From contig NZ_CP035704.1 in assembly GCF_004168365.1 (NCBI RefSeq), forward strand, positions 4,030,001 to 4,094,000: a stretch of 64,000 nt of DNA, read 5' to 3'. The position numbers and the translations under genes were made by a program. The notes under the pieces were generated by a model. The model ran no database searches, was not told the DNA's origin, and saw only the letters and a list, made by a program, of their open reading frames with translations. This stretch comes from Pseudolysobacter antarcticus (GTDB taxonomy: Bacteria; Pseudomonadota; Gammaproteobacteria; Xanthomonadales; Rhodanobacteraceae). This document shows positions 7,649 to 20,023 of the stretch, piece by piece (position 1 is the first letter of the stretch; every line of letters begins with the position of its first letter).

Positions 7649-9070
7649 CTATTCGAAACCGTTGCGAAACAGCAGGTCTTCCGCACCGCGCGTGAGGCTC
7701 AACACAAAGCCATCGGTAGTGCTGCTATCGACATGCAGGCTGAACGCGCCCGCTGGCGCGTTCCAGCTTTCGCCAACCTTGAACATCGAGCCTTCGTTGT
7801 TCGACACATTGGCCGGCGGAATATCCGTATCCACGCTCCACGAGGGTTCCGCTCGCGTCTGGTCGACTTCGTGGATGATGACCGCATCGCCGGCGAGGTT
7901 GGATTCATAACTTGCGGCGATCTTCTTGCGCGCCTCGATAACGTAATAATGCGTTGTTGCAGCGCCCGGCAAACTCACCTGGATCATCTGCAAATGCGTC
8001 GAACCGATCAGGCTGGCGCGATCGAGTTGCAGGTTCGGATAATTGCCCGGCAAGCTGATGACAAGCTTGCGCGCAGCGTCGATCCAGCCGAGCTTGTCGC
8101 GATCATAGACATTGATGTGTTTCGGTTGTGCACCGTACGTCGTATCGCTGGCCGCGTTGTGCCAGGCATCACTCATCACATCCCACGGATTGTCGTAGGG
8201 ATCGGTGTCGAGATCGGAATTGTTGGCGTGCGGCAAGCCGAATCCATGACCCATTTCATGCGCCAGCGGCGCCTCGTTCTGGTAGCCCCACGGCGGCTCC
8301 CACGTCACGCGCCACGAACCGGTCTTGCCGTCGAGCGTGGTGTAGCGGCTGCCGCCCCACGCGCAACAATCGAGATTATCGTTGAACATCTGATTGATGC
8401 CGACGAACAGCGAAAAATTCACCGTACTATCCGCCGCCGCCGTGCAATCGCTGAAAAGCTGGCTGAGATTGGCGCTGCCATTCGCCGGGATATAAAACGC
8501 GCGCGGATGCGGCAGCACAAACCAGCCATACGCCATGCTGCCGGCGACATTGACCTTGCCGTACGAAACGGTGCGCCAATAGTCGTCGAGCCGGCCGCTC
8601 TGGTTCGACAGCATATTGCCGAAATACGTCAGATCTTTTGGCTCAGTTACGTTGTCGCTGAACTTGCACAGGATCGACACCCACGCTTGCGTTCCGATCA
8701 CGGCGTTCGGCGCATTCATCGCATCAATCGCGGCATCGATCGGCACCATCGATTCCACGGCGAGCAATTCGGGCTGCGTTTTATCGGCCAGCAATTGCGC
8801 CGGCATGACCGCGATACGTTTGCCCTGTAGCCGATAGAGATCGCCCGCCGCGCGGCGCGCGCGCGCAGGATCGAGTGCGATACGCCGACCATCGTCAGTC
8901 ACCAAAGTCACGAGCAACGGCGAGGTGCGATCAATCGCATCCGGCGCGGCATCGCCCCAGACCAGTTCGAGCTGACCGCGTAGCAAAGCGTCCGGCGCGG
9001 CACGCGTGAGACCTGGCATAACGAGGCAGAACAGCAGTGCGGCGCACAGAATCCAGCGATACAACATCAT
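7649..9070 (-). CDS. Secreted metzincin-like zinc metalloprotease
   Basis: A 473-residue exported protein with a clear signal peptide (hydrophobic core LCAALLFCLVMPG, cleavage near TRA-AP). Near residue 268 it has HEMGHGFGLPH, a full HExxHxxGxxH zinc site, followed about 20 residues later by WDVMSDAW, a Met-turn. This places it among metzincin-type peptidases (gametolysin/M43-like); the exact family is not certain. It ends in LLFRNGFE, a short tail shared with the DUF2961 protein at 17957. ATG at 9070 (second ATG at 9067) follows GAGGAAG; the open frame upstream is ignored because the signal peptide begins here. It sits between pgk and pyk without an evident metabolic link. Confidence 0.85.
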   Translation of the reverse strand: MMLYRWILCAALLFCLVMPGLTRAAPDALLRGQLELVWGDAAPDAIDRTSPLLVTLVTDDGRRIALDPARARRAAGDLYRLQGKRIAVMPAQLLADKTQPELLAVESMVPIDAAIDAMNAPNAVIGTQAWVSILCKFSDNVTEPKDLTYFGNMLSNQSGRLDDYWRTVSYGKVNVAGSMAYGWFVLPHPRAFYIPANGSANLSQLFSDCTAAADSTVNFSLFVGINQMFNDNLDCCAWGGSRYTTLDGKTGSWRVTWEPPWGYQNEAPLAHEMGHGFGLPHANNSDLDTDPYDNPWDVMSDAWHNAASDTTYGAQPKHINVYDRDKLGWIDAARKLVISLPGNYPNLQLDRASLIGSTHLQMIQVSLPGAATTHYYVIEARKKIAASYESNLAGDAVIIHEVDQTRAEPSWSVDTDIPPANVSNNEGSMFKVGESWNAPAGAFSLHVDSSTTDGFVLSLTRGAEDLLFRNGFE

Positions 9071-9239
9071 GGCTTCCTCGTTTTCAGTGAGCGTAAGCTC
9101 AAGCAAAAAATCTGATACTCGCAACGATCAGCGCGTATTTTTCGATTCCAACTTTAGCATTCGCATGTCTGCGATAAGGCGCACGGATTCGCAGTTTGCA
9201 TGCACGGCGCGATACACAAACTGCCAACACGGGTTTCGA

Positions 9240-11386: not shown

Positions 11387-11860
11387 ATGAACTTTGGTGA
11401 ATGGCTAGGGGTAATCAGCTTACTCGTTGCGTTGCTTGGAACACGGCAGCAGCGAGGAGAGATAGGTTCCGCGACAAAAGTGGCGAGCACCAAATTCAAA
11501 GCAGAAATCAACAAATATGCCGCAGCAAGACGAAACAAACTTACTGCGATGATCGACTGTCCTAGTTTCTTTCTAGCTGACGTATTGTTCAAAATTGGTG
11601 CCCTCGGAATACTTTTTTGGACCATTTTTTCAGTGAATGGCGCGACCGTGACTTCGGAAAATGGGCTAGCCCTAAGAGCGGGCTTCAATGCGGCCGCGCA
11701 TATGGCCGTAAGCCTTCTAGTAGGGATAATTTTCGGTACACTCCTGAATGTCTATTCGGCCGTAAAGGAAAGAATGCGGCTCGCAACATTGGCCGGTTTA
11801 AGTCCCGCCTCCGCATTCGGTCCTCGTACACAAGTTGCTGCGCCTAGCAGTATTGATTGA
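11387..11860 (+). CDS. Hypothetical membrane protein, A+T-richer than neighbours
   Basis: A 157-residue protein with no recognised family. It has an N-terminal hydrophobic stretch (EWLGVISLLVALLG), a polar segment with many Lys/Ala residues, and two further likely membrane helices (about residues 67-87 around IGALGILFWTIFSV, and 104-122 around AVSLLVGIIFGTLL). ATG at 11387 is preceded by GGGAGAG at good spacing; an upstream ATG at 11318 has no such site. One sampled 60-base line is about 45% GC, unlike the glycolytic genes around it, which may mean horizontal gain. It sits alone between the unassigned stretch and the SDR gene. Confidence 0.55.
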   Translation: MNFGEWLGVISLLVALLGTRQQRGEIGSATKVASTKFKAEINKYAAARRNKLTAMIDCPSFFLADVLFKIGALGILFWTIFSVNGATVTSENGLALRAGFNAAAHMAVSLLVGIIFGTLLNVYSAVKERMRLATLAGLSPASAFGPRTQVAAPSSID

Positions 11861-12173
11861 ATAAGCACAGCCAGAGCGCTAGCGTGCAGCCAAGGATCGC
11901 GTCTTGTAATCACACATAACCTTGCGCGCGAGATCTTCTGACCATTGCAGTACGCAAACTCAAATGATCGCCATTTGCTTGTAGTGAACTTGCATCTGCA
12001 ATGACGGCGTTTTGATCTGTCGCTCATATTCGTACTTTCGACATTTGCCGGCCAGAATCCCCGAAGTTCATTCGAAACCGGGCAAAATACGCCGTTGGCG
12101 GCGCGCAGTCTGCGAATCGCCCCGCGCACTACGCGCAGCCCCCTGCCCACTCGATGACGGAATACGCTTTGTG
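11861..12173. other. Intergenic region upstream of the SDR gene
   Basis: These 313 bases between the hypothetical membrane protein and the SDR gene hold no convincing gene. Open frames on both strands give arginine-rich translations typical of non-coding frames. The promoter of the SDR gene should lie here, but I could not define it. Confidence 0.4.
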
Positions 12174-13745
12174 ATGATGAAAACGGCCACCCCGCAACCG
12201 CCGGATGCGGCTGACCTTGCGCTGCTCGAACGCCTGCGTGCGGCGGCGGAACTGCTCGAAGCGGTCGCTGCCGACCGTGGTCTGCTGGAACGATTACCCG
12301 ACGATGACTGCAAGCGCTTGAACCAGGCGGTCGCTCGGGTCTATGCCCCCGACCCGGCCGTGCGCCGGCAAAAACGCAAGACCGCCTTACGCGAGCGCAA
12401 CAAGGAGCAGATCCGCGTCGAAGAGGCTCTGCTCAACCAGACCGGCATCCGCACGCTGCGCCGCAAGCCCGTGTTCACCACGCCGAACGTGTTTCCACCC
12501 AAGGGCTTCACGGCGCACGACAGCGATAGCGATGAGCCGCAGCAACGCGAAACGATCGAGCCGCAGCATTGCTATGTCTGCAAGCAAAAATATTCGACCA
12601 TCGATGTATTCTACGACCAGCTCTGCCCGACCTGCGCTGCGTTCAATTTCGCCAAGCGCAGCGAGCTGGCCGACCTGCACGGCCGCGTTGCATTGCTGAC
12701 CGGCGGTCGCGTAAAGATCGGCTATCAGGCCGGACTAAAACTGCTGCGCGCTGGCGCCGAACTGATCGTGACCACGCGCTTTCCGCGTGATTCCGCAGCG
12801 CGCTACGCCGAGGAAGAAGACTTCGGAGAATGGGGCCATCGCTTGCAGATTTTCGGCCTCGACTTGCGCCACACGCCGAGTGTCGAGGCGTTCTGTCAGG
12901 AACTGGTCGCGACCCGGACGCGTCTTGATTTCATCATCAACAACGCGTGCCAGACCGTGCGCCGGCCGCCCGAGTTCTACGCGCACATGATGGACGGCGA
13001 AACCGCCGCGCTGCACGACACACCGGAACGCGTGCGCAAACTGGTCGGCCATTACGAGGGCCTGCGCAGTTCGCAGATCCTGCCCGATACGCCATCCGCG
13101 CTGGCGGCGCGTGGTGGTGGCGCATCGGCGATTCCCGGACTGACGCGTGCCGCCGAGCTGTCGCAGATTCCGCTGCTCCCCGAGGAATTGCTGGCACAGT
13201 CGCACCTATTCCCCGAAGGCCGCCTCGACCAGGATCTGCAGCAGATCGACCTGCGCGGCCGCAATTCATGGCGTCTGCAGATGGACGAAGTGCCTTCGGT
13301 CGAACTGCTCGAAGTGCAACTGGTCAACGCGATCGCGCCGTTCATCATCAACGCGCGCCTGAAACCGTTGATGCTGCGCACACCGGGGCGCGACAAGCAC
13401 ATCGTCAACGTGTCTGCGGTGGAGGGCCAGTTCTACCGCAACTTCAAGACCACCAAACACCCGCACACGAACATGGCGAAGGCCGCGCTCAACATGATGA
13501 CGCGCACCGCGGCGACCGATTACCACAACGACGGCATCCACATGAACAGCGTCGACACCGGGTGGGTGACCGACGAGGATCCGGCGGAAATCGCTGCGAA
13601 AAAGGTGCTGGAGGAACGCTTCCATCCACCGCTCGACATCCTCGACGGTGCCGCGCGGATCGTCGATCCGATCATCAGCGGCATTAATACCGGCGAGCAC
13701 GTGTGGGGGAAATTCTTGAAGGATTACAAGCCGACGGATTGGTAA
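12174..13745 (+). CDS. SDR-family protein with N-terminal zinc ribbon, catalytic Tyr replaced
   Basis: A 523-residue protein. Residues 1-125 are charged and helical. Residues about 131-155 hold two CxxC pairs (CYVC and CPTC), a likely zinc ribbon. From residue 175 a Rossmann fold of the short-chain dehydrogenase type begins, with TGGRVKIGYQAGLKLLRAGA as nucleotide-binding motif, then FIINNACQT and NVSAVEGQ (the catalytic Ser position). In the active-site helix HTNMAKAALNMM the lysine (about residue 435) is kept, but the usual tyrosine four residues before it is Thr. A tandem ATG at 12174/12177 is used; GTG at 12171 is an alternative. Substrate is unknown. It is transcribed against the flanking glycolytic genes. 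Confidence 0.75.
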   Translation: MMKTATPQPPDAADLALLERLRAAAELLEAVAADRGLLERLPDDDCKRLNQAVARVYAPDPAVRRQKRKTALRERNKEQIRVEEALLNQTGIRTLRRKPVFTTPNVFPPKGFTAHDSDSDEPQQRETIEPQHCYVCKQKYSTIDVFYDQLCPTCAAFNFAKRSELADLHGRVALLTGGRVKIGYQAGLKLLRAGAELIVTTRFPRDSAARYAEEEDFGEWGHRLQIFGLDLRHTPSVEAFCQELVATRTRLDFIINNACQTVRRPPEFYAHMMDGETAALHDTPERVRKLVGHYEGLRSSQILPDTPSALAARGGGASAIPGLTRAAELSQIPLLPEELLAQSHLFPEGRLDQDLQQIDLRGRNSWRLQMDEVPSVELLEVQLVNAIAPFIINARLKPLMLRTPGRDKHIVNVSAVEGQFYRNFKTTKHPHTNMAKAALNMMTRTAATDYHNDGIHMNSVDTGWVTDEDPAEIAAKKVLEERFHPPLDILDGAARIVDPIISGINTGEHVWGKFLKDYKPTDW

Positions 13746-13803
13746 ACACGGCTGGCGTTGCGGTGCCGGTTGCGCGGTCGTTTTGCAGCGCAAATACAAA
13801 AGA

Positions 13804-13838
13804 CAAAAAAATCCCCCGCATGCGAGGCAATGCGGGGG
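13804..13838 (-). terminator. Intrinsic terminator of gap
   Basis: A 9-bp perfect stem, CCCCCGCAT (13813-13821) and ATGCGGGGG (13830-13838), is followed on the minus strand by a run of T from 13812 down to about 13805. It sits just after the gap stop codon and also lies in the convergent gap with the SDR gene. Confidence 0.8.
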
Positions 13839-13874
13839 CCGGTTTTACGCAGATTTTTTAACGTGCAGATTCGA

Positions 13875-14888
13875 TCAGCGTGCAGCGATCAGCGCGAGCG
13901 TGGTATCGAGCATGCGGTTCGAGAAACCCCATTCGTTGTCGTACCACGACAGTACCTTGACCATCGTGCCGCCCATGACTTTGGTCAGCGTGGCATCGTA
14001 GACCGAGCTGCGTGGATCGTGATTGAAATCGACTGAAACCAACGGCTTGGTATTGACGCCGATGATGCCCTTGAACGCACCTTCGGAGGCTTCTTTCATC
14101 ACCGCGTCGATTTCTTCTTTGCTGGTAGCGCGTGCGGCGACAAAACAAAGATCGACCACCGAGACATTGATGGTCGGCACGCGCATCGAGAAACCGTCGA
14201 GCTTGCCGTTGAGTTCCGGCAACACCAATCCGACTGCCGCGGCGGCGCCGGTTTTGGTCGGGATCTGGCTCATGGTTGCCGAGCGTGCGCGACGCAGATC
14301 GCTGTGGAATACGTCGGTCAAAACCTGATCGTTGGTGTAGGCGTGAATGGTCGTCATCAAGCCATGCACGATGCCGATTTTTTCGTGCAGCACTTTCGCC
14401 AGCGGCGCGAGGCAGTTGGTGGTGCATGACGCATTCGAAATCACCTGATGCGCGGCGGTCAGGGTGTGATGATTGACACCGTAGACGATCGTGCCATCGA
14501 CATCTTTATCGCCGGGTGCGGAGATGATCACCTTCTTCGCACCGGCCGCAATATGCGCGCCAGCCTTGGCCTTGCTGGTGAAAAAACCGGTGCATTCGAG
14601 CACGACATCGACACCCAGTGCGCCCCACGGCAACTTGGCCGGATCACGCTCGGCGAACACCTTGATGCGATCGCCCTTGATGATCAGATCGCCGCCATCC
14701 ACCTCGACTTCATGCGGAAAACGACCATGCGCGGTGTCGTAACGCGTGAGGTGCGCGTTGGTTTCGGCGTCGCCCAGATCGTTGATCGCGACCACCTGGA
14801 TTTCGTGCGTGCGATTCGATTCGTACAACGCGCGCAGGATATTGCGACCGATGCGACCGTAACCGTTGATGGCGACTTTAATGGGCAT
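13875..14888 (-). CDS. gap: Glyceraldehyde-3-phosphate dehydrogenase
   Basis: A 337-residue enzyme that oxidises glyceraldehyde-3-phosphate to 1,3-bisphosphoglycerate with NAD. The N-terminal [13 protein letters not shown] is the Rossmann motif, and [18 protein letters not shown] contains the active-site Cys near residue 155. The C-terminal [13 protein letters not shown] is also canonical. Starts at ATG 14888 with GGAG upstream. tkt ends 45 bases upstream, so the two may share a transcript, and a terminator follows the stop. Confidence 0.97.
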
Positions 14889-17956: not shown

Positions 17957-20023
17957 TCAAGGCGACGGCAGATCAAAGCCATCGCGAAAAATCCCATCCG
18001 TCGGTGCGCCCCATAAGGCATACGCCGATTCGCTGAATTGTGTGGCGGCGCTGGGCGCGCCGAATAGCGGGATGACTTCGATCGCAAAACTGCTGCCCGC
18101 GGCGACACCTGACAGCGGTGCATCCTGATCCTGCCAATAGCGCAGCGGATCGGCGGCGGCATACGGGAAATATCCGGCTGTCACTCCATTCACCTTGATT
18201 TGCGCCGGTACGCTCGCCATCTGTACATCGAGCACACGGCGCAAGCGCAGCGGTATCGCTGACATCGGCAAATCGAAGTGGAAACTGCTGCTGCCATCGA
18301 CCAGATGACAGCTCGTGGCGCTGCGCGATGTCGGCGGCTCACTCTCGTAATTCGCGCCGTTCAAAGCGCTGCAAGTCGCACTGACAGGATGCTGATAACC
18401 AAAACGCGACGACGCATTCGCGGCACCCACGTCGAACTGCGCATATGGCGACAACAACACTTGCCGCTGTCCATAACCGTAGAACACCACGTTGGCGCAA
18501 GTCGGTACGGACTGGTTCGGCGCCGCGCCCGGCTCCAGACGAAAATCCAGCGCGTTTTGCCAGGTCAAACTGTCGCCCAGCAGTAACCGCCACGCATTCG
18601 TGGTGGCGCTGATATCGACATGGCTCGCGCCGGAAAATGCCTGCGAATATTCGCGCATGCCGTTGCCGCCGCCGTCGAAATAGAATCCGCCGTTGAAAAA
18701 ATCCTCAAGCCCGGTGCCATACCAATGCGGCTGCGCTGAGCCGTCGATGTAAACCCGCTCATCGCCTTCGAGATAACCCGCATCGGTCACGCCGTTCGCG
18801 TGATACTCGCCGCTGATGCCGACGATGCGCCCGGCACCGAATTGCGTCAGCAACACCAAGTCGGAAGCAACGCCGCATTGCTGACTTTGGGTCGCGAAAA
18901 ACGGCGCAGCATCGGCCGGCACAATCGTGTTATCCAGTGTCAGTTCGCTATCGACGCTGGTACTCGCGGCCAGCGTGTTATCGGCTACCAATGTGACTTG
19001 CACGGACTGCCGGAATGGCATCGGAAACCATGCGTATACCCAGCCCGAAACATCCTCGCCGAGCAACACACCGCGCGGTGGTGTGAGCGTAGTTGTAGGC
19101 GTCGCGAAAAATGCCGATAGCGGCAAATCGATGCTGCTCGACCCATCGATATCTACGCGCAGATGCAAGCTGTCGTAGGCGTTGCGTGGTACGTGCAAAC
19201 GCAGGCCACGCAACCAACCGCTGCCATTTTGCATGAGCAAGGTATGGCTATCTCCCGCCGAAAATGCCGTTGTCGCTGACAGCGCAGCCAAGCCACCGGC
19301 CCACGGATCATCACCGTGATGCGCGAGAAAATTCGTGAGGGCGGGAAATGTGCTGGCCGCGGAAAAACTACTGCCGACCGTGCCGGGCGGCAGACGGTGA
19401 TACTGGAATTGATACCACAGCAGATGCTGATAATCGGGATCGCCGCCGAGTACCGGAATGCACGGATTCGGCAGCCCTTGCACATCGCTCAAGCTGATGC
19501 GTAAACCCTGCGCATACGTTATGGGCACGTAACTCACATAACCGCCACTGGAGCTGCTCCGATCGCTCACGAGCGGTGGCTGGAACGGCACGGTACTGCC
19601 ATCGAACAACGCCGCGAGCGGCAAGCTCAGAGTCGGCGTACTGGCGCCGTCGAGATAAATCTTTGCGCTGATCGCCGGATCGATGCAGCGGCTCATACCA
19701 TCGCCGGTGGTTAGCCAGAATCGCGTGAGCGCACCGGCACCAAGATCATCGAATATCGTGATTTCACCGCCGCTCGAATACAGCCCGCGATTCGGATACG
19801 GATTATTCGCCAGCGGCGTCGGCGCGGAAAAACCATCGCGATCGTAACGACAGCCGCCGTAACAATGCGATGAGTGTTCCAGCACCATGTCGCTTGGATC
19901 GAGACGCGCCAATAGACTCGGTCTCGTCCAGTACTGCCACGGCAAATCTTGCGCGAACGCGACGCGTGACAAACACGTCAGCGCAACACCGCAAATCCAC
20001 ACAAGGCGCAAAGAACCGCGCAT
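17957..20023 (-). CDS. Secreted DUF2961 (GH172-like) protein
   Basis: A 688-residue exported protein with a signal peptide (LRLVWICGVALTCLSRVAFA). The mature protein contains the pattern seen in DUF2961/glycoside hydrolase family 172: YSSGGEITIFDDLGAGALTRFWLT near residue 85, a later EGDERVYIDG and GTGLEDFFNGGFYF near residues 425-450. GH172 enzymes act on fructans and arabinofuranosides. Whether this one is a hydrolase is not shown. Two beta-rich barrels joined in tandem fit the length. The tail GIFRDGFDLPSP resembles the FRNGFE end of the metalloprotease at 7649. It is convergent with the beta-barrel gene. Confidence 0.78.
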   Translation of the reverse strand: MRGSLRLVWICGVALTCLSRVAFAQDLPWQYWTRPSLLARLDPSDMVLEHSSHCYGGCRYDRDGFSAPTPLANNPYPNRGLYSSGGEITIFDDLGAGALTRFWLTTGDGMSRCIDPAISAKIYLDGASTPTLSLPLAALFDGSTVPFQPPLVSDRSSSSGGYVSYVPITYAQGLRISLSDVQGLPNPCIPVLGGDPDYQHLLWYQFQYHRLPPGTVGSSFSAASTFPALTNFLAHHGDDPWAGGLAALSATTAFSAGDSHTLLMQNGSGWLRGLRLHVPRNAYDSLHLRVDIDGSSSIDLPLSAFFATPTTTLTPPRGVLLGEDVSGWVYAWFPMPFRQSVQVTLVADNTLAASTSVDSELTLDNTIVPADAAPFFATQSQQCGVASDLVLLTQFGAGRIVGISGEYHANGVTDAGYLEGDERVYIDGSAQPHWYGTGLEDFFNGGFYFDGGGNGMREYSQAFSGASHVDISATTNAWRLLLGDSLTWQNALDFRLEPGAAPNQSVPTCANVVFYGYGQRQVLLSPYAQFDVGAANASSRFGYQHPVSATCSALNGANYESEPPTSRSATSCHLVDGSSSFHFDLPMSAIPLRLRRVLDVQMASVPAQIKVNGVTAGYFPYAAADPLRYWQDQDAPLSGVAAGSSFAIEVIPLFGAPSAATQFSESAYALWGAPTDGIFRDGFDLPSP

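Follow-up and report, generated by a model that had tools for sequence, protein, structure and literature searches.

Proteins of the SDR superfamily share a fold, and several of its branches depart from the classical active site. In mitochondrial 2,4-dienoyl-CoA reductase the Tyr column is held by Ser and the Ser column by Ala, pteridine reductases (PTR1/FolM) carry a basic residue where the glycine motif has its middle Gly, and NmrA/HSCARG-type NADP sensors have a Rossmann fold without SDR catalysis. Lyase-, dehydratase-, epimerase- and transferase-type chemistries also occur among SDR-fold enzymes. As to the cofactor, it is established for SDRs that an Arg after strand 2 favors NADP(H).

The plant enzyme eugenol synthase is described as being without the SDR Tyr, and its equivalent Lys is essential, the Lys132Ala variant having 0% activity (PMC1991597). 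Escherichia coli FabG is reported to be active with S138A, Y151F and K155A, single and combined; the same paper cites other SDRs in which triad residues are needed, and the FabG result is therefore not general (PMC7973133). It further names human peroxisomal enoyl-CoA reductase as having Phe at the active-site Tyr, and its authors state that, where alternative sites had been put forward for a few triad-less SDRs, they found no tests of them (PMC7973133). Many triad-less SDRs have a structure but no assigned reaction.

In this study we analyzed a gene on a 64,000-nucleotide stretch of DNA from Pseudolysobacter antarcticus (NZ_CP035704.1, positions 4,030,001 to 4,094,000), hereafter called the window. 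Its product belongs to a family of widespread bacterial oxidoreductase-like proteins in which the usual catalytic Tyr is lost and a replacement motif is strictly fixed.

Materials and Methods

The homolog searches covered bacterial genomes, plasmids, phages and viral contigs. The protein alignment contained 122 rows, consisting of 120 of the 133 proteins extracted by tblastn together with L138 and L139, two sequences of greater divergence that were found later. Rows with identical last 300 residues were dropped from the 133, as were L106, L002 and L003. The sequences of L138 and L139 were extracted by a regular expression on HPHTNM, and their discovery was independent of the motif. One scan gave 212 relatives, 80 of which were taken as loci; the scan behind these 80 loci used six patterns that included part of the HPHTNM motif, and the other locus searches were run without the motif. 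The 122 rows are unevenly related, and counts over them are not counts of independent events. Structures were predicted with AlphaFold for the whole protein and for its core, and compared with known folds by VIA-align.

Results

Gene and family assignment

The gene occupies positions 12174..13745 of the window on the + strand, as do all protein features given below. Its open frame starts with an ATG at 12174, ends with a stop codon at 13743-13745 and encodes 523 residues; on the basis of the frame, the matches and the dN/dS values it was annotated as the coding sequence of a zinc-ribbon SDR-fold protein without the catalytic Tyr. Over 12174 to 13745 the sequence matched a single place in the assembly, at 100% identity, and the gene is thus present in a single copy.

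The 523-aa protein matched the Pfam families adh_short with 55.3 bits (cut-off 26.6, E-value 7.9e-15) and adh_short_C2 (PF13561) with 53.4 bits (cut-off 27, E-value 3.4e-14), and all 31 family members that were tested against Pfam matched both at an E-value of 0.1 or better. At E-values up to 1 the protein matched these two families only, neither of them NmrA-like. None of the best 25 of 162 NCBIfam matches was above its curated cut-off, the best one reaching 63.5 bits where 303 would be required, and PADLOC gave no defense-system match. Among solved structures there was no near match: the best one found with the single sequence had an E-value of 5.6e-8, by way of the SDR core alone, and the family profile matched a large SDR at 1e-19. 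No paper on a zinc-ribbon HPHTN SDR family was found in a literature search whose scope left most subscription journals outside. The family is real and conserved, and it is without a name in any curated family.

The structure prediction suggested in the earlier note gave an SDR fold in both models. The mean pLDDT and the pTM were 62.3 and 0.60 for the whole protein, and 65.4 and 0.73 for the core. With VIA-align the whole-protein model matched the classical SDR fold with a best Z of 21.1 (rmsd 3.3, 216 aligned residues) and the second model with a best Z of 22.4 (rmsd 3.1, 223 aligned residues), the Z values lying at 20-22 overall; SDR families absent from the VIA list are not thereby excluded. 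Both models agreed on strand 5 and helix F, with the helix starting at residue 430 in each, and both were unreliable in the insertion and in the loop ahead of helix F. As the pLDDT of the active-site loop (residues 416-432) was under 50 in the whole-protein model, the geometry of the HPHTN residues was not argued from it.

From the N- to the C-terminus, the protein consists of a variable helical region, a CxxC ribbon and then the SDR core, which begins at strand 1 and carries the TGGRVKIG and NNACQT motifs, an insertion, N385, VNVSAVEG and HPHTNMAK. Its fold makes it an SDR-superfamily member, yet it lacks the Tyr, the Ser and the TGxxxGxG by which classical SDRs are recognized.

Cofactor motifs

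The glycine motif TGGRVKIG (residues 176-183; 12699..12722), which the earlier note had taken as the Rossmann motif, is indeed present but does not follow the normal TGxxxGxG pattern: the middle Gly is lost and the other Gly residues are retained. In the 122-row alignment the Thr, the first Gly, the Arg and the last Gly were found in all rows, and position 181 was Lys in 121 of them and Gly in L104. The loss of the middle Gly in 121 of the 122 rows could weaken cofactor binding.

At the end of strand 2 stands Arg202 (12777..12779; 122/122), a residue expected to favor NADP(H). Because strand 2 does not end in an acidic residue and every row has Arg202, NADP(H) would be a more likely cofactor than the NAD proposed earlier. 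The sequence NNACQTVRR (residues 256-264; 12939..12965) corresponds to the NNAG motif of SDRs, with a family-specific Q-T coming next; N257, A258, Q260 and T261 were found in all 122 rows, and position 259 was Cys in 114 and Ala in 8. Asn385 in helix E (13326..13328), conserved in 121 of the 122 rows, is the counterpart of the structural and catalytic SDR Asn.

Active-site positions

The segment HTNMAKAALNMM carries K436, with T432 four residues ahead. Both the alignment and the models place Thr432 at the Tyr position, Lys436 at the position of the SDR lysine and the motif HPHTNMAK (residues 429-436; 13458..13481) at the start of helix F. H429, P430, H431, T432, N433, M434 and K436 were each found in all 122 non-identical homologs, and A435 in 121; the invariance of HPHTNM-x-K extends over identities from ~89% down to ~41-45% and over several phyla. 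A catalytic Tyr in a YxxxK arrangement occurred in 0 of 122 rows, with Thr taking its place in all of them, and the Tyr position of divergent, FabI-type SDRs (K-7) is held by His429 in 122 of 122. The exchange of Tyr for Thr and the retention of the lysine, both noted earlier in the one protein, thus hold for all rows, and since T432 and K436 are each found in 122 of 122, T432 is not a matter of chance or of a sequencing error.

The Ser position, by contrast, had been read as present, and this was not borne out. In the alignment to solved SDRs (NVSAVEG against NISSLAG), S414 of the motif VNVSAVEG (residues 411-418; 13404..13427) stands one residue ahead of the catalytic-Ser column. The column itself is occupied by Ala415, which is Ala in 120 of the 122 rows and Ser in the remaining two, L104 and L138. 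Because both Ser-bearing rows still have the Thr, the Tyr appears to have been lost first; these two long-branched rows suggest that its loss preceded the changes of the Ser and the Gly. Across the stretch from strand 5 to helix F (residues 403-445), 19 of 43 columns were invariant in the 122-row alignment.

The same genome has 25 other PF13561 matches, of which 23 have Tyr at K-4 and one (L162) has a FabI-like Tyr at K-7. Another SDR of the genome, L177 (C2:2923587-2924312), has Asn and Arg for Tyr and Lys (VSNTIRGAV) and lies shortly after a normal SDR gene. Tyr-less SDRs are therefore a minority in this genome, but not unheard of.

Putative zinc ribbon, N-terminal region and insertion

Ahead of the fold lies a CxxC-x14-CxxC zinc-ribbon-like motif (C133, C136, C151 and C154; 12570..12635), a putative metal site. 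The four Cys of this ribbon, which the earlier note had pointed out, were each found in all 122 rows, so that both CxxC pairs are present throughout. In the predicted models, both of low confidence overall, short strands and a helix surround the Cys residues. Pfam matches of the ribbon were weak only, to the Spt4 zinc finger in 1 of 31 members and to DUF2039 in 2 of 31. The ribbon region (residues 128-162) had 6 invariant columns out of 35.

The N-terminal region (residues about 10-96; 12201..12461) is helical in the whole-protein model and poorly conserved, with 0 of 127 columns invariant among residues 1-127 of the 122 rows. The insertion (residues about 262-376; 12957..13301) lies between strand 4 and helix E and ends with DLR..NSW. 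It adds ~100 residues ahead of helix E: 128 residues separate N257 from N385, whereas about 24 lie between the two Asn in classical SDRs. Its loop (residues 277-350) had no invariant column out of 74, and D359, N364, S365 and W366 were conserved in 122 of 122 rows.

Genomic neighborhood

In the window, the SDR gene faces a GAPDH gene on the minus strand and a transketolase gene, and the PGK gene lies on its other side. On the minus strand in between, at 13838-13813, there is a hairpin that resembles a terminator and has a T run; it probably serves GAPDH. A promoter scan from 11700 to 13950 found nothing on the + strand. The glycolytic genes remarked on in the earlier note are thus real at this place, but they are not common to the other loci, as they recurred in none of the clustered homolog loci. 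Beyond clade-level synteny, no conserved operon or pathway neighbor was found in the clustered loci, nor in 25 wider loci except for a leucine-rich-repeat (LRR) gene. Elsewhere in the window, a minus-strand frame at 7649-9124 carries a zinc-metalloprotease-like motif (HEMGHGFGLPH) and had no Pfam match up to an E-value of 0.001, and a 688-residue frame at 17957-20023 (minus strand) matches DUF2961 (PF11175).

The LRR gene (PF13516) lies directly downstream of the SDR gene in three divergent members: L155 (3822-4979, minus strand; Verrucomicrobiota-derived locus), L158 (6241-7416, + strand; Acidobacteriota-derived locus) and L107 (7083-7493, + strand; Deinococcus), the last being a short and apparently truncated frame. 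Among 20 SDR-bearing genomes or records it was found in three, each time beside the SDR gene, and this 20-genome search gave no match in the window's own genome. No plasmid carried it at an E-value of 1e-10. Elsewhere it was found in 1 of 396 genomes, the LRR query genome itself, and in another draw in 2 of 308, namely the query genome and a 30% match (L192) that had no SDR neighbor by motif scan. This association suggests a protein partner in the divergent branch; it is no direct evidence on the genome of the window.

Distribution and selection

Occurrence of the gene was patchy across the genomes sampled. Matches were present in 35 of 147 genomes of its own family and, in an even draw over its own phylum, in 2 of 299, one of them the window's genome. 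Of the phyla of three further genomes, that of G299 (locus titled Acidobacteria) had matches in 12 of 247 genomes, that of G300 (Verrucomicrobia in the title) in 4 of 194, and that of G301 (Gemmatimonadales in the title) in 48 of 200, several with two copies. From the last phylum 20 loci were fetched, so that only part of its matches was read; it may be a main reservoir of the family. Among 72,556 plasmid records four carry the gene (Deinococcus, Tsukamurella and two Streptomyces). The Tsukamurella homolog (L108:5710-7176, + strand) is carried by a 67.6 kb plasmid, where a nucleoside hydrolase gene is adjacent to it and a gluconokinase gene is nearby. A phage or viral origin was considered and rejected, with no match in phages and none confirmed in viral contigs.

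A tree built from 60 rows did not gather the Lysobacterales in one neat clade, and some of them interleaved with Acidobacteriota and other MAG rows; horizontal transfer and misbinned MAG contigs could both contribute to this mixing. L104 and L138 were placed on long branches at one end of the midpoint-rooted tree. The pairwise dN/dS values were 0.081 for L111, 0.062 for L113, 0.088 for L004, 0.095 for L028 and 0.146 for L060 (389-391 codons), and the gene is under strong purifying selection.

Discussion

We propose, with belief and doubt in equal measure, that the protein is a catalytically active NADP(H)-dependent SDR-fold oxidoreductase with a rebuilt active site, in which Lys436 and the HPHTN loop replace the Tyr and Ser. 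The Rossmann core would bind NADP(H), with Arg202 and the Arg and Lys of TGGRVKIG near its phosphates, and Lys436 would hold the nicotinamide ribose as in other SDRs. His429, His431 and Thr432 of the HPHTN loop may take over substrate positioning and proton relay from Tyr and Ser, the large insertion ahead of helix E may act as a substrate cap, and the four-Cys ribbon may pack as a structural zinc site or a partner surface. Because the Tyr is absent, the most likely reaction class would be a reduction, either of a C=C bond or of an electrophile for which little acid assistance is required. That Lys436, Asn385 and the strand-2 Arg are kept, and that a new motif is fixed at the Tyr and Ser positions, argues for a working rebuilt site. 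Moreover, since the Lys and Asn385 are kept and the Tyr, Ser and Gly are swapped for residues that are almost equally fixed, the changes point to rebuilding and not to decay. Conservation is highest in the motifs of the cofactor site and the active site, in keeping with a ligand-binding site that is in use, and the family members probably do a real chemical job rather than being broken enzymes. Against an active enzyme counts that no substrate, operon or pathway link was found.

The earlier note had preferred a sensor or an RNA- or protein-binding factor to a dehydrogenase. The residue change alone does not support this, given that Tyr-less eugenol synthase and FabG mutants are active, and because published Tyr-less SDRs can be active the loss of the Tyr is weak evidence for a sensor. 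We consider it rather unlikely that the protein binds NADP(H) without catalysis, as a sensor or scaffold whose core would read NADP(H) or a metabolite and whose ribbon and N-terminal helices would relay the signal to a partner, either protein or RNA. The missing catalytic Tyr (0/122) and Ser (2/122), the extra ribbon and long helices, and the LRR gene downstream in three divergent members, with the partner that it suggests in that branch, speak for such a role, and the strict conservation of the pocket would fit a ligand sensor as well. However, invariant columns are far denser around the active site (19/43 in 403-445) than in the ribbon region (6/35 in 128-162) and are absent from the N-terminal region (0/127), the Lys and Asn that are retained are not obviously needed by a pure sensor, Pfam gave no NmrA-type match up to an E-value of 1, and no conserved regulator neighbor was seen in the loci compared.

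Less probable still is a reaction of the non-redox or internal-redox kind, carried out with bound NADP(H) by an SDR-fold lyase, dehydratase, epimerase or transferase. The His-Pro-His-Thr-Asn site, the acidic E417, Q260-T261 and N364-S365-W366 suggest a crowded polar pocket that would suit it, but the epimerase/dehydratase families of Pfam were matched only weakly, and in 6 of 31 members. That an ordinary SDR takes its catalytic Tyr from elsewhere is very improbable. The only candidate, Y421 of YRNFK, does form a literal YxxxK with K425, which is found in 122 of 122 rows; it was rejected because it is Tyr in 112 rows and S, G, T, N or A in the other 10, stands only six residues past the Ser column instead of about thirteen, and because K436, not K425, takes the Lys position, as judged by helix F and by aligning the protein to solved SDRs. 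The alignment of homologs thus revealed neither a normal YxxxK nor a Tyr elsewhere that takes the catalytic place, the two outcomes that the earlier note had said would refute its reading of the active site. A decaying pseudogene or an annotation artefact, which might be suspected from the patchy distribution (35 of the 147 own-family genomes), is refuted by the dN/dS values of 0.06-0.15 and by frames that are open in relatives across several phyla, and we attach next to no probability to it.

For the study of triad-less SDRs the family offers a natural experiment, with 212 relatives in one scan, some of them in culturable bacteria, and one alternative motif in every row examined. L104 and L138, which keep the Ser (and, in L104, also the normal Gly), let the replacement site be tested by mutation.

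Among known systems, eugenol synthase and the PIP family are likewise without the Tyr and rely on the SDR Lys (PMC1991597). Eugenol synthase differs in being a plant enzyme with phenolic substrates, and the NmrA-type Pfam match is absent from the protein studied here. We know of no ribbon or HPHTN motif in eugenol synthase. The NmrA/HSCARG-type sensors are set apart by the same lack of a Pfam match and by the SDR Lys and Asn that are kept here. Human peroxisomal trans-2-enoyl-CoA reductase (1yxm) was matched by fold with a Z of 21.3 (rmsd 3.7, 235 aligned residues) at only 17% identity across those residues and, to our knowledge, has neither a ribbon nor an HPHTN motif. The 2,4-dienoyl-CoA reductases (PDB 1w6u and 4fc6) have the SDR fold in common with the family, and the catalytic Tyr of the mitochondrial enzyme (Tyr199) presumably corresponds to Ser414. 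Pteridine reductases keep YxxxK, unlike the family described here; an SDR of the same genome with a pteridine-reductase look (L171) has TGAARRVG and likewise keeps its YxxxK (VYCMAK). With the classical SDRs FabG, tropinone reductase and gluconate 5-dehydrogenase the family shares the fold, the first and last Gly, NNA, the helix-E Asn and the Lys, and it differs from them in the missing Tyr and Ser, the Lys for the middle Gly, the ~100-residue insertion, the ribbon and a length of 523 against about 250 residues. We tentatively suggest, somewhat short of an even call, that it represents an SDR lineage of its own, whose Ser-Tyr-Lys triad has given way to an invariant His-Pro-His-Thr-Asn-x-x-Lys with a new proton-relay chemistry. 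The site would be combined with a zinc ribbon and, in one branch with members in Deinococcota, Verrucomicrobiota and Acidobacteriota, the protein would have an LRR protein as its partner.
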